A stretch of 21,293 nt of DNA from a virus, in IMG/VR virus record IMGVR_UViG_3300019828_000731, positions 1 through 21,293 of that record; one strand, given 5' to 3'. Numbering within the stretch: the stretch's first letter is position 1; every line of letters begins with the position of its first letter. The notes under the pieces are model-generated. The model was not told the DNA's origin. It worked only from the letters and a program-made list of their open reading frames with translations, and did not search any database. Positions 5,055 through 18,113 of the stretch are shown here, piece by piece. The position numbers and the translations under genes are program-made.

Positions 5055-5531
5055 ATGTTTAAGATAAAAGGTAAAATACAATTCGATCCAATAGATGTAA
5101 CTAAGAAGCACAAAAGTCAATCTTCTTGGAAAAAAACAGTTATTGTTAAATTTGGATGTGATTTATCTAATTATTATGCTTGGTTCTTAAAAAGGCGATT
5201 TGGTGTTGAGTTGAATCCGCCATTAAGAGGGGCTCACTTCACAATTATAAATGATAGAATTGATGATTTAGTTTATAACGAAGCAAAAAAAATATTTAAT
5301 AACACTGATATAGAAATAATTTATGACCCAACAATAGTAAAAACTGATGCTAAAGGTCACTGGTGGATCAAAGCACACTCTCAAGATGCTCAAAACATGA
5401 GAAATGTATTAGGACTAGATAAGCCTTATCATGGATTTCATATTACACTAGGATTAGCCACGCACTTATGGTTAGATCACTCTTTATACATTAGAGAACA
5501 ATGTAGAAGATTTAAGTTATTGGAAATATAA
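5055..5531 (+). CDS. Candidate 2H phosphoesterase (two HxT motifs)
   Basis: A 158-aa protein with two His-x-Thr motifs, AHFTII (His61/Thr63) and GFHITLGL (His129/Thr131), 68 residues apart. Both are followed by hydrophobic strands, as in the 2H superfamily (LigT, 2',5'-RNA ligases, cyclic phosphodiesterases, phage Acb1). The superfamily hydrolyses or ligates 2',3'- or 2',5'-phosphoester bonds in RNA ends or cyclic oligonucleotides. In phages, members of similar length disarm CBASS signalling (T4 Acb1) or handle tRNA ends. I cannot tell which role applies, since overall similarity outside the motifs is not evident. It has its own promoter (5019-5050). Confidence 0.6.
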   Translation: MFKIKGKIQFDPIDVTKKHKSQSSWKKTVIVKFGCDLSNYYAWFLKRRFGVELNPPLRGAHFTIINDRIDDLVYNEAKKIFNNTDIEIIYDPTIVKTDAKGHWWIKAHSQDAQNMRNVLGLDKPYHGFHITLGLATHLWLDHSLYIREQCRRFKLLEI

Positions 5532-5552
5532 TATTATATATATCATGGTGTT

Positions 5553-5580
5553 GCAGATCTGCTAAAAAACACTAGTGTTT
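5553..5580. repeat. Two adjacent perfect palindromes
   Basis: GCAGATCTGC at 5553-5562 and AAACACTAGTGTTT at 5567-5580 are separated by four bases. They lie in the 105-base gap after the 2H gene and upstream of the tnpB remnant. Possible roles are a protein-binding operator, a structured transcript end, or a decayed left end of an IS200/IS605-type element, whose ends carry hairpins. Confidence 0.45.
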
Positions 5581-5636
5581 ACTATAATGATTTCACTACA
5601 ATAATATATATGTTGTAACAAAAATAAAGCAACATT

Positions 5637-5813
5637 ATGAAGAAGTCATTACTTACGACAATTTTTTTATCCTTTTTTATGATATTATTCTCACAAGAGA
5701 GTGGTAAAAATGATAGAATACAAAATTTATTACTTTCTCAGGAACATATTCATATATCTAATCAGTATGAATTGTTGAGAACGCCATATATGATAGGTAG
5801 ATTCTTGTTTTAA
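5637..5813 (+). CDS. Small secreted or membrane-anchored peptide, 58 aa
   Basis: The ORF encodes MKKSLLTTIFLSFFMILFSQ, then a polar tail ending MIGRFLF. The N-terminus is a textbook signal peptide: two lysines, a hydrophobic core at residues 5-18, and a possible cleavage site after the Ser-Gln. The tail (about 38 residues) has no recognisable motif. It may be an exported phage peptide or the 5' remnant of a longer exported protein. It sits between the paired palindromes (5553-5580) and the tnpB remnant, so it could be cargo or debris of that element. Confidence 0.5.
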   Translation: MKKSLLTTIFLSFFMILFSQESGKNDRIQNLLLSQEHIHISNQYELLRTPYMIGRFLF

Positions 5814-5864
5814 CTTTCTAACAATTGATATAAAATGACATTTAAAGTTTAATATATACTTTTA

Positions 5865-6041
5865 ATGAAAACAATATTTAAGTCATGTAACACAACACAC
5901 GATAGAGATTTTAATGCGGCTAAAAATATATTAAAACAAGGTTTAAAAATATTATCTGGTTCATGGATTGAATCGGATGTAAAACAAAAACAGGTGGAGG
6001 CGTTATCGTTAGATGAGTCTATGAAACCTGAAACACATTAG
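5865..6041 (+). pseudogene. tnpB: 3' remnant of tnpB (IS200/IS605 family)
   Basis: The short ORF reads MKTIFKSCNTTHDRDFNAAK, then NILKQGLKIL. The DRDxNAAxNI motif is the diagnostic C-terminal RuvC-III segment of TnpB/IS605 OrfB, preceded by the last part of the zinc ribbon (Cys8). All of the upstream protein, including the other RuvC acidic residues, is missing; only about 58 codons remain. No tnpA is visible nearby. The 3' end runs into a hairpin at 6033-6057, where the right end and guide (omega) RNA of such elements normally lie. The truncated TS gene starts 75 bases further on. This is a dead element remnant. Confidence 0.75.
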
Positions 6042-6057
6042 TCTTTAGCTAATGTGT
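6033..6057 (+). repeat. Right-end hairpin of the tnpB remnant
   Basis: ACACATTAG at 6033-6041 pairs exactly with 6049-6057 around a 7-base loop, and the tnpB stop codon lies within the 5' arm. IS200/IS605 right ends carry subterminal hairpins that also form the 3' part of the omega RNA, so this is probably the surviving element end. It could also simply serve as a transcript-end hairpin. Confidence 0.5.
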
Positions 6058-6115
6058 AGTTCATAGAACACAACAAAGAGATTAAACTTTGTTGTAATTT
6101 TTCATAAAACAGTTT

Positions 6116-6844
6116 ATGAATACATTAGATAAACAATACATAAATTTACTGAAAGATATACTTGATAATGGTGTTAGTAAAGGTGATAGAACCGGAACTG
6201 GCACCATTTCAGTTTTTGGTAGACAGATAAGACATAAAATGTCCGAGGGATTCCCTCTATTAACAACTAAAAAAATGCCATTTAAAACAATAACAACAGA
6301 ACTTCTGTGGTTTTTGAGAGGTGATACTAATATTAAATACTTAGTTGATAATAATTGTAATATTTGGAATGGTGATGCTTATAAGAATTATTTTAATAAA
6401 ACTAAAGATTTGACCTTAGAGACATTACATGTTCCTTTTCAACAAACACATTTATTTGGCACAATAGGTGGATCTGTTAGTAAGGGTAAATTTAGACCAT
6501 ATACTATAGAAGAATTTGTAAATAAAATTAAAACAGATGATGAATTTGCTAATAAATGGGGTGATTTAGGTCCTGTTTATGGTAAACAATGGAGAAACTG
6601 GGAAGGAGTTGACCAAATAGAGAATTTGATAAATGATCTAAAATCAAATCCTGATTCTAGGAGATTAATGGTTAATGCTTGGAACGTAGCCAATATAGAC
6701 CAAATGGTTTTACCGCCTTGTCATTATGGGTTTCAAGTTTATACTAGAGAATTAAGCTTTGATGAAAGATTTGAATTGGCTGTTGATAAAGGAAATAACC
6801 CACTAGATATGGATAAAACAATAACAAAATCTAATGATATATAA
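6116..6844 (+). pseudogene. thyA: Thymidylate synthase, truncated 3' (copy 1)
   Basis: Clear Thy[21 protein letters not shown] near residue 20 (folate/phosphate-binding Arg), [49 protein letters not shown], and the active-site Cys in [11 protein letters not shown]. After about residue 230 homology stops at LDMDK, and the ORF ends 7 codons later. The NQRSCD segment and the dUMP/folate-binding C-terminus (the GDxHIYxNH region) are missing, so this copy should not be catalytic. A second, complete TS lies at 15197 and an extra 3' fragment at 17071. The breakpoint coincides with the end of the convergent minus-strand gene (6803-7308), suggesting a rearrangement. No intron core is evident downstream. 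Confidence 0.85.
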
Positions 6845-7308
6845 CCTTTTTACTTTCATCAGTAAGTAGACATCGGTTAAAGCCTTATACTCATCGACTA
6901 CTTTACTAATAGTACTCTCAAATTTAAATATACTTTCAAATTTAAATATATCATTTTCAATTGTTTTATCCATATTACCACCAATTGAAAACGATGTCTT
7001 TTTAACCTTACTACTGAACCATCCAGTTGAGAATATAAATAGATAAAAGTTTAGCTTTTTACTAAAAATATAATCCATATCTTTACCATAATAATCAAAT
7101 TCTAACTCAGAGTTAAGATGTTTTTTATATTGTATTATTAACCACTTAACATACTTACCTGGTTTAGAAAAATCTTTCTTTCTAACACTTGTAGGGTCGA
7201 TATTAACCAATTTATAAAATACACCCTTATCTAAATCAGAATAATATTTTAATCTTATAGCTTCACTACCTATTGTTTTTCTTCATTAAACTTTCTTAAA
7301 TATCTCAT
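6803..7308 (-). CDS. Tagged accessory protein ([10 protein letters not shown] start), frameshifted
   Basis: The uninterrupted part (7210-6803) has no natural start context. Extending upstream on the minus strand finds [11 protein letters not shown] from 7308. It runs into a stop at a T5 run (A5 on the coding strand, 7276-7280). Adding one A continues as [18 protein letters not shown] and then joins [19 protein letters not shown] in one frame of about 168 codons. The N-terminus carries the shared KFxE tag. The body is unrecognised, basic and aromatic-rich. The duplicated FKFES-I segment near residues 115-130 is a small tandem repeat. Its 3' end overlaps the truncated TS by 42 bases. Confidence 0.6.
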
Positions 7309-12404: not shown

Positions 12405-12436
12405 TTTGCAGGTATAAAAACTTTGTTATATATTTG
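12405..12436 (+). promoter_or_regulatory. Strong Bacteroidetes-type promoter of the tRNA island
   Basis: TTTG at 12405-12408, a 20-base spacer, and TATATTTG at 12429-12436: a full match to the TTTG / TAnnTTTG consensus with correct spacing. Transcription would begin near 12441-12443. The transcript would have a leader of about 200 bases carrying the leader ORF (12491) and terminator (12614) before the first tRNA. Confidence 0.65.
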
Positions 12437-12490: not shown

Positions 12491-12589
12491 ATGAACACAA
12501 CAACTTTAAATACAAACTTATCACTGAGATCTCTTTTATTAAGAGAAGGGTCGGGATTTGTCTTATTTGAACGTTGTGATAGTAAATAA
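12491..12589 (+). CDS. Leu/Arg-rich leader peptide of the tRNA operon
   Basis: A 32-codon ORF, MNTTTLNTNLSLRSLLLREG then SGFVLFERCDSK, between the promoter (12405) and the terminator (12614). Seven of the 32 residues are Leu and three are Arg, with the core Leu-Arg-Ser-Leu-Leu-Leu-Arg at 12524-12544. These are the same two amino acids read by the tRNAs just downstream. The core sits beside a 6-bp hairpin (12530-12535 with 12541-12546), and codons 21-24 overlap the antiterminator strand. No known protein family. The position fits an attenuator leader peptide, but function is inferred. Confidence 0.55.
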   Translation: MNTTTLNTNLSLRSLLLREGSGFVLFERCDSK

Positions 12590-12621
12590 TTACTATAATA
12601 ATATATCTAATACAAACCCGA
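12551..12621 (+). promoter_or_regulatory. Candidate antiterminator pairing in the tRNA leader
   Basis: TCGGGATTTG at 12551-12560 can pair with CAAACCCGA at 12613-12621, giving nine base pairs with one bulged A. The second strand is the 5' side of the terminator at 12614-12647, so the two structures are mutually exclusive. The first strand lies inside the leader ORF, where a translating ribosome would mask it. Seen by eye; not folded. Confidence 0.5.
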
Positions 12622-12647
12622 TACTCATAAAAGTATCGGGTTTTTTT
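12614..12647 (+). terminator. Intrinsic terminator upstream of the tRNA cluster
   Basis: AAACCCGATACT (12614-12625) pairs perfectly with 12632-12643 around loop CATAAA. The 12-bp stem is followed by a T-tract to 12647. It stands only three bases before the first tRNA, so unless read through it would shut off the whole tRNA island. This is what makes an attenuation role likely. Confidence 0.9.
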
Positions 12648-12649
12648 AT

Positions 12650-12733
12650 GCACTTGTGGTGGAATTGGTAGACACCCTGGTCTTAGAAGCCAGTGCTCGG
12701 AAGAGCGTGAGAGTTCGATTCTCTCCAAGTGTA
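12650..12733 (+). tRNA. tRNA-Leu(UAG)
   Basis: Complete class II cloverleaf: acceptor GCACTTG/CAAGTGT (one G-U), D-arm GTG...CAC with AATTGGTAGA loop, anticodon stem CTGGT/GCCAG with loop CTTAGAA (anticodon TAG), long variable arm, T-arm GAGAG TTCGATT CTCTC, and discriminator A. No encoded CCA. It reads CUN Leu codons. Confidence 0.92.
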
Positions 12734-12740
12734 CTATAAT

Positions 12741-12827
12741 GCGGCTATGATGAAATTGGTAGCACATGCTAGACTTAAAATCTAGTGGATAGTAATGTCC
12801 GTGCGGGTTCGACTCCCGTACAAAAAT
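12741..12827 (+). tRNA. tRNA-Leu(UAA), lacking the 3' acceptor strand
   Basis: The D-arm (ATG...CAT, loop AAATTGGTAGCA), anticodon stem CTAGA/TCTAG with loop CTTAAAA (anticodon TAA), long variable arm and T-arm GCGGG TTCGACT CCCGT are all intact. The 5' acceptor GCGGCTA should be matched by TAGCCGC after the T-stem. Instead the T-stem is followed directly by ACAAAAA, the spacer that follows other tRNAs here. It looks as if the seven-base 3' acceptor strand has been deleted. As written, it cannot form an acceptor stem. Confidence 0.7.
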
Positions 12828-12900
12828 GGCCCTATGGTGTAACTGAATAACACACACGCCTTCTAAGCGTATATTCCAAGTTTGAATCTTGGTAGGGTCA
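12828..12900 (+). tRNA. tRNA-Arg(UCU)
   Basis: Acceptor GGCCCTA/TAGGGTC (one G-U), D-stem GTG/CAC, anticodon stem CACGC/GCGTA (outer C-A mismatch) with loop CTTCTAA (anticodon TCT), short variable loop, T-arm CCAAG TTTGAAT CTTGG, discriminator A, no encoded CCA. The D-loop has only one G instead of the usual GG. It reads AGA, the codon expected to be common for Arg in this AT-rich genome. Confidence 0.85.
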
Positions 12901-12913
12901 CAAAAAATTAAAT

Positions 12914-12988
12914 GCTCTGGTAGCCCAATTGGAAGAGGCAATAGTTTTAGAAACTATACAGGTGTGGGTTCAAATCCCACTCGGAGTA
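12914..12988 (+). tRNA. Class I tRNA with anticodon UAG (identity uncertain)
   Basis: Acceptor GCTCTGG/TCGGAGT with three wobble pairs, D-stem GCC/GGC with loop containing AATTGG, anticodon stem ATAGT/ACTAT with loop TTTAGAA (anticodon TAG), a six-base variable loop, T-arm GTGGG TTCAAAT CCCAC, discriminator A. The anticodon reads CUN Leu codons. However, the short variable loop is class I, unlike the long-armed tRNA-Leu genes beside it. It may be a minimal tRNA-Leu or a tRNA of another identity with a changed anticodon. Confidence 0.8.
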
Positions 12989-12992
12989 CAAT

Positions 12993-13073
12993 GTCTCAGT
13001 AGTCCCAGTTGTCTTCTAAACAACTACGGGTAATTGGATGCTGAAAATATAGGTTCGAATCCTATCTGAGACA
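12993..13073 (+). tRNA. Aberrant tRNA-Arg(UCU)-like gene lacking a normal D-arm
   Basis: Perfect acceptor GTCTCAG/CTGAGAC with discriminator A, and perfect T-arm ATAGG TTCGAAT CCTAT. A classical anticodon arm GTTGT CTTCTAA ACAAC (anticodon TCT) starts only eight bases after the acceptor, leaving no room for a D-arm. A 24-base segment containing TAATTGG lies between the anticodon arm and T-arm. CCC (13004-13006) can pair with GGG (13028-13030) to lengthen the anticodon hairpin. This is either a rearranged tRNA remnant or an unusual D-armless tRNA. Confidence 0.55.
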
Positions 13074-13078
13074 CAAAT

Positions 13079-13129
13079 ATCTTGGTGGTGAAACCGTGTA
13101 CGCTGCGGGTTCGACTCCCGTCCAAGATA
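13079..13129 (+). tRNA. Minimal tRNA-like gene: acceptor and T-arm only
   Basis: Acceptor ATCTTGG/CCAAGAT (7 bp, perfect) and T-arm GCGGG TTCGACT CCCGT are intact, with discriminator A. Only 19 bases lie between acceptor and T-arm, with no anticodon arm. The T-arm equals that of the tRNA-Leu(UAA) at 12741, so this may be a class II tRNA that lost D-loop to variable arm. The result is a minihelix of about 51 nt. Confidence 0.5.
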
Positions 13130-13144
13130 CAAAATGAAAGTAAA

Positions 13145-13318
13145 ATGATAATAGAGATAGATAATAAGACATATTTGGTAGAACCTTGTAAGCATTGTAA
13201 AAGAGATGATATCATTTATATAGAGAGTGATTTACCATGGAGTGATAGTAAATTTATATGTGATTTCTGTTGCTCTACCTATTCAATATTTGATACTAAT
13301 ATAGCAAATAAGATATAA
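13145..13318 (+). CDS. Zinc-ribbon protein, 57 aa, within the tRNA array
   Basis: MIIEIDNKTYLVEPCKHCKR opens the ORF, followed by a CDFCC motif. Two Cys-x-x-Cys pairs (PCKHC around residues 15-18 and CDFC around 39-42) are spaced as in a small zinc ribbon. I chose the ATG at 13145 because the in-frame upstream region lies inside the tRNA-like gene at 13079. Such ribbons bind nucleic acid or protein partners. Its place between tRNA genes and just ahead of the LeuRS leader suggests a role in RNA handling or transcription, but this is inference. Confidence 0.65.
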   Translation: MIIEIDNKTYLVEPCKHCKRDDIIYIESDLPWSDSKFICDFCCSTYSIFDTNIANKI

Positions 13319-13337
13319 ATTTGAATAAGAAAAATAA

Positions 13338-13411
13338 GGCTTTGTATCATAATCGCATAATGAAATAGTTTCCTAAACTATCCTATGTGGGTTGGAATCC
13401 CTCCGAAGTCA
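13338..13411 (+). tRNA. tRNA-Arg(CCU), divergent
   Basis: Acceptor GGCTTTG/CGAAGTC with two wobble pairs, anticodon stem ATAGT/ACTAT with loop TTCCTAA (anticodon CCT), discriminator A. The D-loop lacks the usual GG. The T-stem has one T-T mismatch (GTGGG/CCCTC). The T-loop is TTGGAAT instead of TTCGAAT, so both partners of the D-loop/T-loop contact are altered. It would read AGG. Possibly a decaying tRNA. Confidence 0.7.
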
Positions 13412-13429
13412 CAAATAAAAAAATAAAAT

Positions 13430-13471
13430 ATGAAAACTAAAAATACATTACTACTACTACTCAAAGAATGA
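13430..13471 (+). CDS. Leucine leader peptide of leuS (MKTKNTLLLLLKE)
   Basis: A 13-codon ORF with five consecutive Leu codons (TTA CTA CTA CTA CTC, 13448-13462), then Lys-Glu and a TGA at 13469-13471. A terminator (13503-13534) and the LeuRS gene (13561) follow. The Leu codons are those read by anticodons UAA and UAG, exactly the Leu anticodons of the upstream phage tRNAs. The stop codon lies at the beginning of the predicted antiterminator strand, so a ribosome reaching the stop would mask it. This is the classical arrangement of an amino-acid biosynthesis attenuator. Function is inferred from layout. Confidence 0.75.
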   Translation: MKTKNTLLLLLKE

Positions 13472-13515
13472 TTCTTCTTTAGTATAGTAATACCTTATAC
13501 TCAAGTCTTATCATT
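13467..13515 (+). promoter_or_regulatory. Candidate antiterminator of the leuS leader
   Basis: The segment 13467-13485 can pair with 13497-13515: AATGAT with ATCATT (6 bp), CTT with AAG (3 bp), AGTAT with ATACT (5 bp), separated by a small internal loop and a mismatch. The 3' strand includes most of the terminator's 5' arm, so the structures exclude each other. In addition AGTATAGTA (13481-13489) can pair with the Leu-codon run TACTA/TACT (13452-13456, 13458-13461), giving a protector hairpin. By eye only. Confidence 0.55.
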
Positions 13516-13534
13516 AATTTGATAAGACTTTTTT
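13503..13534 (+). terminator. Intrinsic terminator (attenuator) before leuS
   Basis: AAGTCTTATCA (13503-13513) pairs perfectly with 13520-13530 around loop TTAATT, followed by T to 13534. It lies 27 bases before the leuS ATG, with no visible promoter between them. LeuRS expression from the upstream promoter therefore needs read-through or antitermination. Confidence 0.9.
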
Positions 13535-13560: not shown

Positions 13561-15186
13561 ATGAATATAAAAGAAATAGAAAAAAAGTGGCAAAATAAAT
13601 GGATAGAAGATAATTCATTTAAATTTGATGTAAACTCTAATAAAGAGAAGAAGATTATCATACCTATGTTTCCTTACCCCTCTGGTAATATACATATGGG
13701 TCATATGAGAAATTATACAATATCGGATGTGATTGCTAGATATTGTCGAAATAAAGGATTTAACGTTTGTCATCCAATGGGTTGGGACTCATATGGTTCA
13801 CCAGCAGAAAGTGCTGCTATAAATAATAATGTACATCCAAAAGAATGGACTGATATCAATATTAAGAATATGAAAGAGCAAATGATTAGAATGGGTATGT
13901 CATTTGATTGGAGTAGAGAAATATCAACATGCGAGGTAGACTATTGGAAAAATGAACAGAAGTTCTTTATTGATATGTGGAAAAAAGGATATATTGATAA
14001 GAAGATTGGTTATGTAAACTGGGATCCAATAGATGAGAGTGTGGTTTCAAATGAACAAGTTATAGATGGTAAAGGGTGGAGAACAGGTGCTATAATAGAA
14101 CAAAAAGAAATGATACAATATTACTTTAAAACAACTATGTTTAAAGATGATATGATGAATGTATCCTCTTGTGAAGAATGGCCTGATAATATTACTAAGC
14201 AACAAGTAAACTTCATGAGTAAGGGTATAAGAAATGGTGATGATATAAACCCATTCTCAGATTGGTGTGTATCAAGACAGAAATATTGGGGAACACCAAT
14301 ACCTATGATCAATTGTGACAAATGTGGAACTATTCCAAATGAGAATATCCCAGTAGTAGCACCAATTGATGTTGACTTTAATGGAAAGGGTAATCCTATA
14401 AGAAATCATGCAACATGGGCGAATATAAAATGCCCAAATTGTGGTGGTGATGCTGAGAAAGAAACAGATACAATGGATACATTTGTTCAATCATCTTGGT
14501 ACTTTATAAGATATATCTCAGATTTTTTTAATGGTGAGTTCGATCATGATGTTATTAAAAAAATGTTCCCAATTGATTACTATATTGGTGGCTCAGAACA
14601 TGCTAATAGTCATATGATTTATTCTAGATTTTTTTGGAGAGTTTTTAAAGAAATGAATTATATACCTAAAAATACCTCAATAGAACCATTTAAAAAAGTA
14701 ATAACACAAGGTATGGTGAAAAATGGTGGGAAAAAGATGAGTAAATCAGCAGGTAATGGTATATCACCAATTGATGTAGTTGATAAATATGGTTGTGATG
14801 TTGTAAGAATGTATATGATGTTCAGTGGACCAGTTGAACAAGATATTGATTGGAATGAAGATGGTATAAAAGGTGTGTCTAGATTTATAACTAAAATTAT
14901 AAATGCTATAACTAAAATAAAAGATAAAGATTTCATATATATTAAAAATGTAAAAAATGAACAAATATCTAAAACTAAAATAGAAGAATTGAATAAAAGA
15001 ATTGAAAATGTATATGAAGATAATATGAAATTTAATACAATAATAGCATTTTCAATGGAAACATATAATGCAATATCAAAAACAACTGATATAAATATAT
15101 GGAAAGAGGGAATAGATACCATAATGCGTGGTATAGGTCCAATAATTCCACATATTTATAGTGAAAATTATGAAAATTATGAATAG
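13561..15186 (+). CDS. leuS: Leucyl-tRNA synthetase lacking the CP1 editing domain
   Basis: Charges tRNA-Leu with leucine using ATP. Class Ia motifs are intact: FPYPSGNIHMGHMRNY (HIGH motif, residues 38-53), CHPMGWDSYGSPAE, VNWDPIDESVVSNEQV, WCVSRQKYWGTPIP, a zinc knuckle (CDKCG then CPNCGG, before ETDTMDTFVQSSWYF), YIGGSEHANSHMIYSRFF and KKMSKSAGN (KMSKS). Ordinary bacterial LeuRS is about 860 residues; this is 541. Between QQVNFMSKG and SDWCVSRQ only about a dozen residues remain where the CP1 editing domain normally inserts. The C-terminus stops soon after GPIIPHIYSE, so the end of the anticodon-binding bundle and the C-terminal domain are absent. Mycoplasma mobile LeuRS is a known natural case lacking CP1. 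Thymidylate synthase follows 10 bases later. Confidence 0.95.
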   Translation: MNIKEIEKKWQNKWIEDNSFKFDVNSNKEKKIIIPMFPYPSGNIHMGHMRNYTISDVIARYCRNKGFNVCHPMGWDSYGSPAESAAINNNVHPKEWTDINIKNMKEQMIRMGMSFDWSREISTCEVDYWKNEQKFFIDMWKKGYIDKKIGYVNWDPIDESVVSNEQVIDGKGWRTGAIIEQKEMIQYYFKTTMFKDDMMNVSSCEEWPDNITKQQVNFMSKGIRNGDDINPFSDWCVSRQKYWGTPIPMINCDKCGTIPNENIPVVAPIDVDFNGKGNPIRNHATWANIKCPNCGGDAEKETDTMDTFVQSSWYFIRYISDFFNGEFDHDVIKKMFPIDYYIGGSEHANSHMIYSRFFWRVFKEMNYIPKNTSIEPFKKVITQGMVKNGGKKMSKSAGNGISPIDVVDKYGCDVVRMYMMFSGPVEQDIDWNEDGIKGVSRFITKIINAITKIKDKDFIYIKNVKNEQISKTKIEELNKRIENVYEDNMKFNTIIAFSMETYNAISKTTDINIWKEGIDTIMRGIGPIIPHIYSENYENYE

Positions 15187-15196
15187 AAAACTAAAA

Positions 15197-16245
15197 ATGA
15201 ATAAAGTAGATAAAAAATATTTAAAACTTCTTAAAAAAATTTTAAAAAAGGAATAGTTAAAAAAGATAGAACCAGAACTGGGACAATATCCTTATTTGGT
15301 CATTCGATGCGTTTTAACATGAGTGATGGCTTTCCACTATTAACGTCTAAAAAAATGTTTACAAAAGCAATAATAATTGAATTAATATGGTTTATAAATG
15401 GAGATACTAATATTAAATATTTAGTTGACAATGGATGTAATATCTGGAATGGAGACGCTTATAAAAATTATTGTAATAAGTATTGGACATTAGATGAATT
15501 ATGTAAAATTGAATATGGTAGCTCATATTATGATCATGAGTTAAATGAATATAATTTTGAAGTTTGGACAATTGAAAAATTTATTGAGAAAATAAAAACA
15601 GATGATGTCTTCTGTAAAAAATGGGGTGAGTTGGGACCAGTATATGGGAGACAATGGCGTGATTTTAATGGCGTTGATCAATTTAAAGATTTGTTAGAAA
15701 CTCTTAAAAAAAATCCGGACTCTAGAAGAATGATGGTTAGTGCATGGGATCCATCAAAACTTAATGAAATGGTTCTACCACCTTGCCACTTTAACTTCCA
15801 ATGTTATACAACAGAAATGACTTACAATGAAAGAATTAAAAGGTGGTTAAAATCTATCAATAAAGATGAATCATATTCAAAAGAAATGACAATGGAAAAA
15901 TTAGATTTACAAGGATTTCCAAAAAGAAAATTGGATATAAAATGGAGTCAACGCAGTTGCGATTTTTTCCTAGGAATTCCGTTCAATATAGCATCCTATG
16001 GTCTCCTACTACATTTATTAGCAAAAGAAGTTAATATGATTCCTAATGATTTAATATTTTCCGGTGGAGATTGTCACATCTACCTAAATCATATAGATGT
16101 TGTTAAAGAACAATTAAAAAGTGAAACATTTAAATTATGTAATTTGGAGTTATTGAATAACTCAATATTTAATTTAAAATATGAGGATTTTAAGATTCTA
16201 AATTATAAATCTTCCCCTGTATTAAAAGGAAAATTATCAAATTAA
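15197..16245 (+). CDS. thyA: Thymidylate synthase, full length, one frameshift (copy 2)
   Basis: Makes dTMP from dUMP and methylene-tetrahydrofolate. MNKVDKKYLKLLKKILKK starts at 15197. At the A6 run 15244-15249 the frame shifts, and one extra A restores GIVKKDRTRTGTISLFGHSM. The rest is intact: FPLLTSKKM, GPVYGRQWRDF, PDSRRMMVSAWD, active-site Cys in LPPCHFNFQCY, WSQRSCDFFLGIPFNIASYG and GGDCHIYLNHID. Repaired length is about 349 aa. In phase, the site reads TTA AAA AAG, containing the slippery heptamer A AAA AAG, so -1 frameshifting is an alternative to base-call error. The last nine bases overlap the 3' end of the antisense GIY-YIG gene. Confidence 0.88.
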
Positions 16246-16255
16246 AATATAATTA
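16231..16255. repeat. 25-bp direct repeat across the TS stop, first copy
   Basis: Positions 16231-16255 are identical to 17287-17311. In both places the sequence covers the last codons and stop of a TS reading frame on the plus strand and the last codons and stop of a GIY-YIG gene on the minus strand. The spacing of 1,056 bases marks the period of a diverged tandem duplication. Confidence 0.85.
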
Positions 16256-17046
16256 ATAAACCTAGGATTATCTGACAAACATCTCCATCTAATTGTCACC
16301 ACAGGTAATCCTATATCTTTTGATGCATCATGATAGGATTCATAAATTATTCCATCAACTGATAATTTAATTCTATTTATGGGCTTTTTACCAATTCTTT
16401 TTTGTCTAATTTTATCCTTGCTTTCCTCACTATGTTTTTTCCCATAAAAGTGATTTTTATCACCTATTCTTTCAGATGCACTTTTTGATAATTTATCACT
16501 TATAATATTTGCTCTTTCTAAACCATATAATTCAATATTAGTCTTTCCCTTATTAATTGGCTCTATTCCAATTCTTCTCAAAGATGCAATTTCTCTCATC
16601 TCATCATTCCACCTTTTACCATAATTTGGATTTGACTCACCAGATTTACCCCATTTTTCTACCCTTTCTTCCTTTGACATATTAGATATTTTATTATTTA
16701 AAGTCTCTGTAATTCGTTTAATTATATCTTCTCTATTTGGATTATTAGTCAAATTATCACCACCTGATGCGTTTTTACCTATATTGAAACCATTATTATT
16801 AAATGGTTGAAACTCATCAATAAAATATTAATCTCTTATAAGTAGTTGATCTATTTCACATAATTCTAAAATTTCAAACTTAAAATTGTTTATACCATAT
16901 TTATCAAATGCTCTTTGTAAATGTATATTTATGTGTTTATTCCCATTTAGGTCATTTATATGCCTCCTCCATCTTTTTCTAATATTATTTGATGAGCCTA
17001 TGTAAAGTTTATCATTACAAGTTATTTTATATATTCCTATTTCCAT
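16237..17046 (-). pseudogene. GIY-YIG homing endonuclease 1, one in-frame stop
   Basis: The N-terminal part (17046-16828) has EIGIYKITCNDKLYIGSSNN with GIY and YIG, IRKRWRRHI (catalytic Arg) and KFEILE (catalytic Glu), so the nuclease core is intact. A TAA at 16828-16830 interrupts the frame at codon 73. Without changing frame it continues as YFIDEFQPFNNNGFNIG and ASGGDNLTNNPN. The C-terminal part carries NUMOD3-like modules (SNPNYGKRWNDEM; NHFYGKKHSEESKDKIRQKR) and a helix-turn-helix module (VDGIIYESYHDASKDIG). Relative 17293-18113 has EQKY where the stop occurs. The phage T4 enzyme I-TevI is also GIY-YIG and also targets TS. Either inactive or expressed as separate domains (a Met lies at 16752). 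Confidence 0.82.
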
Positions 17047-17070
17047 AACTTATATATTAATAGTTGGGTC

Positions 17071-17301
17071 TTATTAGCAAGGGAAGCTAACATGATACCA
17101 GATGAATTAATAGGAAATTTAGGAGATTGTCATATATATTTAAATCAAATAGATCCTATTCAAGAACAACTTAATAATAAATCATATAAATTACCAGAAT
17201 TAAAATTATCAAATAATTCAATCTTTGATATAAAAATAGAAGAAATTTCTATTATAGGTTATAAATCATCTAAAAGAGTTAATTATAAATTATCAAATTA
17301 A
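17071..17301 (+). pseudogene. thyA: Orphan 3' end of thymidylate synthase (copy 3)
   Basis: The frame reads LLAREANMIPDELIGNLGDC, then HIYLNQIDPIQEQL, and ends YKLSN. It matches the last ~76 residues of copy 2 (LLAKEVNMIPNDLIFSGGDC onward). It begins abruptly at TTATTAGCA with no upstream TS sequence; the preceding bases belong to the upstream region of endonuclease 1. Its GNLGD is closer to the usual TS GSLGD than the FSGGD of copy 2, so this may be the original gene end, displaced when endonuclease 1 arrived with its own copy of the end. Confidence 0.8.
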
Positions 17302-17311: not shown

Positions 17312-18113
17312 TCAAATTTTTTATTTTTTGATAAACATCGCCACCTAATTGTAACAACTGGTATTTCTTTATCTTTTTGAAGCATCACCATAGGAATCAT
17401 ATATTTTTCCATCTATTGAGAGTTTAACTCTATTTGACGGCTTTATACCCATTCTTTTTTTACTAATTTTATTTTAGTTTCATCACTATGTTTTTACCAT
17501 AGAATCCATTTTTTTCACCTATTCTTTGTGAAGCTAAAAAAGATAGCTTCTCACTTATTCTTTTTGATATTTCTTCGCCATATAATTCAGTGTTTGTTTT
17601 TCCAAACCTATTTCTTAGTCCATTTTTCAAATTAGATTTTTGATAATTTGAAAAATCTAATTTCATTTTATCAGACCATCTATTGCCATAATTTGGATTT
17701 AATTTACCTATTTTGCCCCATTTTTCTTTTTTTCCTTTTGTTGTCATATTTGATATGTTATAATTAACAGACTCTTTAATTCTATTTATTATATCTATTC
17801 TTTTTGGATTATTTGTTAGGTTATCTCCACCAGAAGCACCAGTGCTTATATTTAATACATTTTCATTAAATGGTAAAATACTTTTCAAATATTTTTGCTC
17901 TGTTATTAATAATTCTTTTACTTTACATAATTCTATAACCTCAAATTTAAAATTATCTAATCCATATTTATTAAAAACTCTTTGTAATTTTATATTTATG
18001 TGTTTATTTTTATTTAAATCATCTATATGTCTTTTCCACCTTTTTTCTATATTTTTTGATGATCCTATGTAGAATTTTTCACCACAACTAATTTTATATA
18101 TTCCTGAACTCAT
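17293..18113 (-). CDS. GIY-YIG homing endonuclease 2, frameshifted near C-terminus
   Basis: MSSGIYKISCGEKFYIGSSK carries the GIY and YIG motifs. IEKRWKRHI and KFEVIE supply the catalytic Arg and Glu, then SGGDNLTNNPKR and the NUMOD-like LNPNYGNRWSDKM. The uninterrupted frame ends at 17469 with FYGKNIVMKLK. At the T5 run 17491-17495 one added A restores KKHSDETKIKLVKKRMGIKP and a helix-turn-helix module up to DAS. A second, opposite shift near 17374-17378 is needed to finish PVVTIRWRCLSKNKKFDNYILI at 17293. It is a clear paralogue of the endonuclease at 16237-17046. It overlaps the TS fragment's 3' end antisense. Probably an active or recently active mobile endonuclease with base-call errors. 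Confidence 0.8.
17623..17663. repeat. Two overlapping inverted repeats inside endonuclease 2
   Basis: AAATTAGATTTTT (17629-17641) pairs with 17651-17663 over 13 bp. The overlapping TTTTTCAAATTA (17623-17634) pairs with 17644-17655 over 12 bp. The two hairpins compete for the same bases. The segment is coding (KLDFSNYQKSNLKNG) and has no counterpart in endonuclease 1. Confidence 0.6.

Follow-up and report, generated by a model that had tools for sequence, protein, structure and literature searches.

Putative ribosome-stalling attenuators upstream of tRNA arrays and aminoacyl-tRNA synthetase genes in huge phages

Expression of the synthetase operon pheST of Escherichia coli depends on a leader peptide with many cognate residues and on a ribosome-dependent antiterminator/terminator switch. 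In Firmicutes, T-box riboswitches turn on synthetase genes in response to uncharged tRNA, which they bind directly and without translation. The leaders of the trp, his, leu and thr operons (Rfam families Trp_leader, RF00513, and Thr_leader, RF00506) have a regulatory-codon ORF, an antiterminator and an intrinsic terminator, and these three elements are shared by the phage loci dealt with here.

Huge phages with tRNAs and synthetases of their own, including one with a 735-kb genome, have been described (Al-Shayeb et al., 2020; PMC7162821). They are of the same kind and have the same gene content as the phages considered below; the words "attenuat", "leader" and "terminator" are absent from the main text of that paper. 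Attenuators would bear on the questions of why large phages have dozens of tRNAs and how these are deployed.

The Leu/Arg tRNA-leuS locus

The stretch of DNA analysed, in the following called the window, comprises the 21,293 nucleotides of IMG/VR virus record IMGVR_UViG_3300019828_000731. A preliminary description, made from the sequence without database searches, had proposed that a phage gene for leucyl-tRNA synthetase (LeuRS) is preceded by a five-leucine leader, an antiterminator and a terminator. Indeed, a 13-codon ORF on the plus strand at 13430-13471 (leader peptide 2, MKTKNTLLLLLKE; codons ATG AAA ACT AAA AAT ACA TTA CTA CTA CTA CTC AAA GAA TGA) contains the five Leu codons and the TGA that had been claimed. 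It is followed by an intrinsic terminator at 13503-13534 (plus strand), the stem of which (AAGTCTTATCA/TGATAAGACTT, 13503-13530, -12.8 kcal/mol) has the predicted 11 perfect base pairs, with a T-run to 13534. The proposed pairing of the segment after the leader with the 5' arm of the terminator is also real: the antiterminator strand (13466-13488, plus strand) pairs with 13495-13516 (duplex -12.1, hairpin -10.0 kcal/mol). AGTATAGTA at 13481-13489 (plus strand) has the Leu-codon run as alternative partner (a 1:2 protector hairpin), and this pairing, likewise foreseen, is present in the minimum free energy structure of the free leader.

The whole leuS leader folds better than 200 of 200 shuffled sequences (z -4.9), and the terminator and the 1:2 hairpin account for most of this excess; taken alone, the antiterminator duplex with the terminator arm is about as good as in shuffled sequence (z 0.18). 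In cotranscriptional folding with a masking ribosome, which had been suggested as a check, the terminator arm is predicted to be sequestered to 0.79 with the ribosome at the Leu codons, as against 0.66 in shuffled sequences, and to 0.02 with the ribosome at the stop. Without a ribosome, when the 1:2 hairpin can form, the value is only 0.45. As a single sequence the antiterminator of the window leuS is thus unremarkable, and relatives are needed for a decision. Significance is derived from 53 non-homologous leaders elsewhere.

That the downstream gene (leuS, 13561-15186, plus strand) encodes a LeuRS was borne out by a match of 590 bits to NCBIfam TIGR00396, which exceeds the curated cut-off. 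The 541-aa enzyme lacks the CP1 editing domain, since it is colinear with 3ziu, which we take to be the editing-domain-free LeuRS of Mycoplasma mobile, and since it aligns to full-length LeuRS as two separate stretches. The phage enzyme from genome LR745206.1, also without a CP1 domain, has just 422 aa (6007-7275 of locus L003).

A second leader and terminator (12491-12643), overlooked in the preliminary description, head the tRNA array upstream of leuS. A Bacteroidota-type promoter, TTTG-N20-TATATTTG (12405-12436, plus strand; -33 box at 12405-12408, -7 box at 12429-12436), lies 54 nt upstream of the first leader ATG. Leader peptide 1 (MNTTTLNTNLSLRSLLLREGSGFVLFERCDSK, 12491-12589, plus strand) is rich in Leu and Arg codons, and of 47 arrays the one that it heads (Leu, Arg) is its best match. 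The antiterminator strand of attenuator 1 (12542-12566, plus strand) has its partner at 12607-12627 (-15.3 kcal/mol), and the intrinsic terminator (12614-12646, plus strand), consisting of a 12-bp stem (12614-12643, -16.4 kcal/mol) and a T-run, lies 8 nt upstream of the first tRNA. The array (12650-13412, plus strand) has five called tRNAs, in the order tRNA-Leu(TAG) at 12650, tRNA-Arg(TCT) at 12828, tRNA-Leu(TAG) at 12914, tRNA-Arg(TCT) at 12979 and tRNA-Arg(CCT) at 13338, all on the plus strand. Also in the array are a degenerate tRNA on the plus strand at 12748-12819, not called by ARAGORN and scoring 29.5 bits in RF00005, a degenerate tRNA-like sequence at 13080-13130, again without an ARAGORN call, and a small ORF at 13146-13318. 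At both sites of the window the regulatory codons are concentrated in the short leader ORFs (12491-12589 and 13430-13471). No Bacteroidota-type promoter box was found within 110 nt of the leuS leader, and leuS therefore appears to lie behind two serial gates, one for Leu/Arg and then one for Leu alone.

Elsewhere in the window there are two copies of thymidylate synthase (6116-7210 and 15307-17301) that seem to be broken or split; the opposite strand carries NUMOD3/I-TevI-like and GIY-YIG endonuclease genes (16237-16752 and 17469-18113), an arrangement that looks like invasion by homing endonucleases or introns.

Relatives and the match between leaders and downstream genes

The LeuRS genes closest to that of the window among phage records are found in the huge-phage genomes LR756501.1 (735 kb; 64% identity) and LR745206.1 (634 kb; 36%). 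With the window LeuRS as single-sequence query no relative was found among viral contigs; a LeuRS-profile search of IMG/VR yielded 64 loci. In LR756501.1, five tRNA-Leu genes and leuS lie behind a terminator and a leader in which every one of the six Leu codons occurs (MNNILHINLLNSLCLLGIKLIG); a homing-endonuclease-like ORF (5259-6028 of locus L002) separates the tRNA-Leu array from leuS there, whereas the two are contiguous in the window. The preliminary description had recommended a search of related leuS loci for Leu-run leaders before a terminator, and several independent loci have them, each with an antiterminator: MINNNVNILLLPLT in LR745206.1 (L003), MNTNLLLLADS and MKQNAKSLLLLLL directly upstream of leuS in loci L069 and L072, and further ones in L050, L051, L057, L061, L065 and L074. 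Relatives that keep leuS and the terminator without the Leu codons or the alternative pairing had been named as the case that would speak against the proposal, and the outcome of this comparison favours an attenuator. It should be noted that no attenuator was seen at about 30 other viral leuS loci; the device is not common to all phage leuS genes. None of 79 bacterial leuS loci has a terminator-like hairpin in the 400 nt upstream of the gene; as these loci are mostly alphaproteobacterial, the comparison with host-type leuS attenuation is weak.

The original proposal, supported for leuS by the relatives, proved too narrow in that the same device also heads several other synthetase genes and tRNA arrays that together cover almost all amino acids. 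The leader-terminator layout is also present in the two complete huge-phage genomes and in about ten IMG/VR contigs, before tRNA arrays and/or aminoacyl-tRNA synthetase genes. For example, QQIQQQQ precedes three tRNA-Gln, SKSSSRSSSMSEIR Arg and Ser tRNAs, YESYYEE Glu and Tyr tRNAs, HKNFSKSHKWF His, Phe, Trp and Lys tRNAs, and LSLSLSLSLS Leu/Ser tRNAs; in IMG/VR loci, MKTTLSLSLSLSLSLSG stands before Leu,Ser,Ser,Ser,Leu,Leu-leuS and LYYLYLYLY before Tyr and seven Leu tRNAs. When the arrays of nine further contigs were scanned, leaders were found in eight; contig G009 (L068) has tRNAs and no leaders.

When terminator-preceded arrays were collected by a rule blind to amino acids (n = 47), all 47 leaders were richer in the residues of their own array than expected (mean 0.43 vs 0.19), and none of 100,000 permutations reached the observed match (z 15.4). 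After homologues had been collapsed and the leaders of phage G, SCTP-2, Atu_ph07 and Lak-A1 and four synthetase leaders of LR745206.1 had been added, 52 of 53 independent, non-homologous leaders were above expectation (z 16.4, 0/200,000 permutations), these additions having been picked by eye or after scans. One array leader, at 11801 of L074, has no cognate match. By simple wobble rules, the anticodons of a leader's own array can read 84% of the cognate codons. In all, 66 leaders were tabulated. The IMG/VR set was entered via LeuRS, and so were the two whole-genome scans, which were blind to leaders; a panel of 12 phages was picked independently of LeuRS.

In both complete genomes a strong terminator before a tRNA array is always accompanied by a matching leader. 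LR745206.1 (W02) has 130 strong terminators outside ORFs, and the seven before tRNAs all have cognate leaders; the mean z of the antiterminator duplex is -2.5 before tRNAs as against -0.6 before ORFs and -0.3 elsewhere. In LR756501.1 (W01) there are 116, of which four precede tRNAs, all with cognate leaders, and the corresponding values are -4.2, +0.4 and +0.3. Most of the strongest antiterminator cases among the ORF-preceding terminators of LR745206.1 adjoin synthetase genes with matching leaders: VVVNV upstream of a ValRS-like gene, IIII upstream of ileS, NILLLPL upstream of leuS, and FNFFF upstream of the PheS-related ligase SrmL. A weaker case (z -1.8) is NDDRF upstream of an aspartyl-tRNA(Asn) synthetase. 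SrmL, a "mystery ligase" (NF051887, 423 bits) near 614957 on the minus strand, lies behind the Phe-run leader MNTNTTFNFFFSHKMV, which hints at phenylalanine or tRNA-Phe as its substrate. Strong terminator/antiterminator candidates also stand before small unknown genes in this genome at 345154 (plus strand, z -7.4) and 48062 (minus strand, z -5.3), with no obvious cognate leader at either. In general, large tRNA arrays are gated and single or paired tRNAs mostly ungated. The box TAnnTTTG occurs upstream of 32 of 54 leaders, where 2.2 would be expected.

The 12 phages of the panel all bear tRNAs and had been selected in advance by fame, size or number of tRNAs; four of them have the device. Gp86 of Bacillus phage G (JN638751, 58381-58515; with the terminator, 58381-58576), annotated without function, has the leader residues C, S, W, F, E, D, T and Y and lies upstream of tRNAs for Cys, Asp, Phe, Tyr, Glu, Thr, Ser and Trp (Trp by the record's annotation); its sequence fits a leader peptide of this cluster. 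Applied to the second tRNA cluster of phage G (402000-414500), the same rule finds no leader. Salicola phage SCTP-2 has four gated arrays, e.g., QYQLQQLPLVLYPY upstream of Leu,Pro,Leu,Tyr,Gln. The leader of Agrobacterium phage Atu_ph07, annotated merely as hypothetical protein AUZ95228.1, holds all nine amino acids of its own array, and in Prevotella phage Lak-A1 GMHPVCGMVHMFPCGGGRPM precedes His,Pro,Arg,Arg,Gly,Cys,Met tRNAs. By the same rule the device is absent from the other eight (KVP40, T5, XacN1, crAss001, 121Q, RaK2, phiKZ and Serratia BF); Tenacibaculum PTm1 has no tRNAs. With four of 12 positive, the device crosses host phyla, yet is not universal for tRNA-bearing phages.

Competing structures, proposed mechanism and alternatives

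Pairing of a leader segment with the 5' arm of the terminator beats dinucleotide shuffles in 47 of 54 leaders (mean z -2.9). The pairing strand follows directly after the cognate codons, in the C-terminal part of long leaders or just beyond the stop of short ones. In homologous attenuators the stem sequences diverge and the 2:3 and 3:4 pairings are both retained, for example in the HKF family with TTCGGGGTT/AACCCCGAA, TATCGGGGTT/AACCCCGATA and GTTCGG/CCGAAC. When the complete terminator is folded at equilibrium, it prevails nearly everywhere and no switch is visible; a switch must therefore be kinetic. Equilibrium folding was accordingly replaced by cotranscriptional truncation, in which the transcript stops within the terminator loop. 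The 5' arm is then predicted to be sequestered to 0.84 with the ribosome at the cognate codons and to 0.13 with the ribosome at the stop, as compared to 0.57 in shuffled leaders, and 53 of 54 leaders are predicted to switch, in most cases no more than a few codons from where the cognate block ends. In RNA free of ribosomes, predicted sequestration of the arm is 0.79 on average and at least 0.5 in 44 of 54 leaders, so that arrays are predicted to be on also when initiation fails; in these predictions the classical 1:2 protector hairpin is not general. A leader ORF, cognate codons, an intrinsic terminator and an exclusive antiterminator, the last in silico and weak in the window leuS taken alone, are thus all present.

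We consider it very likely (probability about 0.9) that the leuS leader region attenuates transcription by ribosome stalling and is the second of two such devices arranged in series within a single Leu/Arg tRNA-leuS transcription unit, a reading that draws on the observed anatomy, cognate matching, competing structures and promoter enrichment. RNA polymerase would start shortly after the promoter, which ends at 12436. If the leader is translated fast, the ribosome at its end would cover the antiterminator strand and the terminator would halt transcription. A shortage of Leu- (or Arg-) tRNA, or of its charged form, would stall the ribosome on the cognate codons, and the antiterminator would pair with the 5' arm before the 3' arm is synthesized. 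Read-through would then lead to the matching tRNAs and, past the second, Leu-only gate, to leuS, and the added tRNA and LeuRS would restore leader translation in a negative feedback loop. We infer leader translation, these kinetics, low charged tRNA as the physiological signal and the physiological role from the arrangement. The same device, with codons matched to each array or synthetase, would serve the majority of the large tRNA arrays in these huge phages. At even odds, huge phages of several host phyla possess a genome-wide, multi-channel sensor of charged tRNA, in which every large array and every synthetase gene has as its gate a separate leader that reads the amino acids supplied (up to eight or nine), and translation capacity is rebuilt on demand, including after host tRNA-cleaving defences.

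The terminators could instead simply end upstream transcripts, with the short ORFs being there by chance and the tRNAs and leuS having promoters of their own further downstream. T-rich hairpins before genes are indeed common (116-130 strong terminators per genome outside ORFs), and in the window a tRNA gene ends 18 nt upstream of leader 2. However, leader residues match the downstream array in a way reached by none of 200,000 permutations, strong antiterminators are concentrated at array and synthetase sites, promoter boxes precede the leaders, and the terminators are often only 6-30 nt upstream of the first tRNA, which leaves scant space for a downstream promoter; we regard this explanation as nearly negligible. 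Very unlikely, too, is that the signal is translation itself (a failure of coupling or initiation) rather than a particular amino acid or tRNA, with arrays turned on whenever leader translation fails. Lost initiation would activate arrays, since most untranslated leaders are also predicted to be antiterminated (0.79), but the match of leader codons to specific downstream tRNAs would be left unexplained.

Phage tRNAs are known to replace host tRNAs that have been cut. The attenuator could therefore be real and act mainly as a counter-defence sensor, host tRNA-cutting nucleases stalling the leader ribosomes and thereby releasing phage replacement tRNAs. Stalling should report tRNA abundance besides charging, and the gated arrays mostly encode tRNAs rather than synthetases; leaders before ileS, the ValRS gene and leuS, on the other hand, also suggest a role in charging. 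As the main function we consider counter-defence possible, although rather doubtful; it is compatible with the attenuator explanation and does not exclude it.

Significance and comparison with known systems

If the attenuator explanation is true, phage tRNAs are an on-demand answer to the loss of particular charged tRNAs and not constitutive supplements for codon usage. The question becomes testable in cultured phages, namely with gp86 of Bacillus phage G, in Agrobacterium phage Atu_ph07 and in Salicola phage SCTP-2. Small "hypothetical" ORFs gain a role as leaders, leaders become a means of inferring the substrates of unknown ligases, and ribosome-stalling attenuation is extended to tRNA genes and to leaders for several amino acids.

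No Rfam leader was found at the gathering score, attenuator 1 reaching 20.2 of 55 bits with Thr_leader and 19.3 of 41 bits with Trp_leader, and the T-box covariance model had no match in any locus scanned. A known Rfam leader or a T-box was rejected as explanation because no model reached its curated threshold. No description of attenuation of phage tRNAs or phage synthetases was found in the open-access literature, subscription papers and preprints being outside the scope of the search.

T-boxes share the regulon logic with the phage loci and differ in that the phage device is proposed to read tRNA via translation of a leader. The trp, his, leu and thr leaders govern genes of amino-acid biosynthesis, whereas the proposed targets of the phage leaders are tRNAs and synthetases, and a single leader can read as many as eight or nine amino acids; the trp paradigm differs also in that most leaders here are predicted to be antiterminated without a ribosome. 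The closest functional precedent is the pheST attenuator, with a synthetase target, a cognate leader and a ribosome-dependent switch, as proposed for the phage loci. There, however, a host gene is controlled in response to a single amino acid, whereas the main targets of the phage device are tRNA arrays and its leaders read several amino acids. Leader-peptide attenuation as a class of mechanism is classical; within the literature searched, novelty lies in the targets, the leaders for several amino acids and the phage setting.
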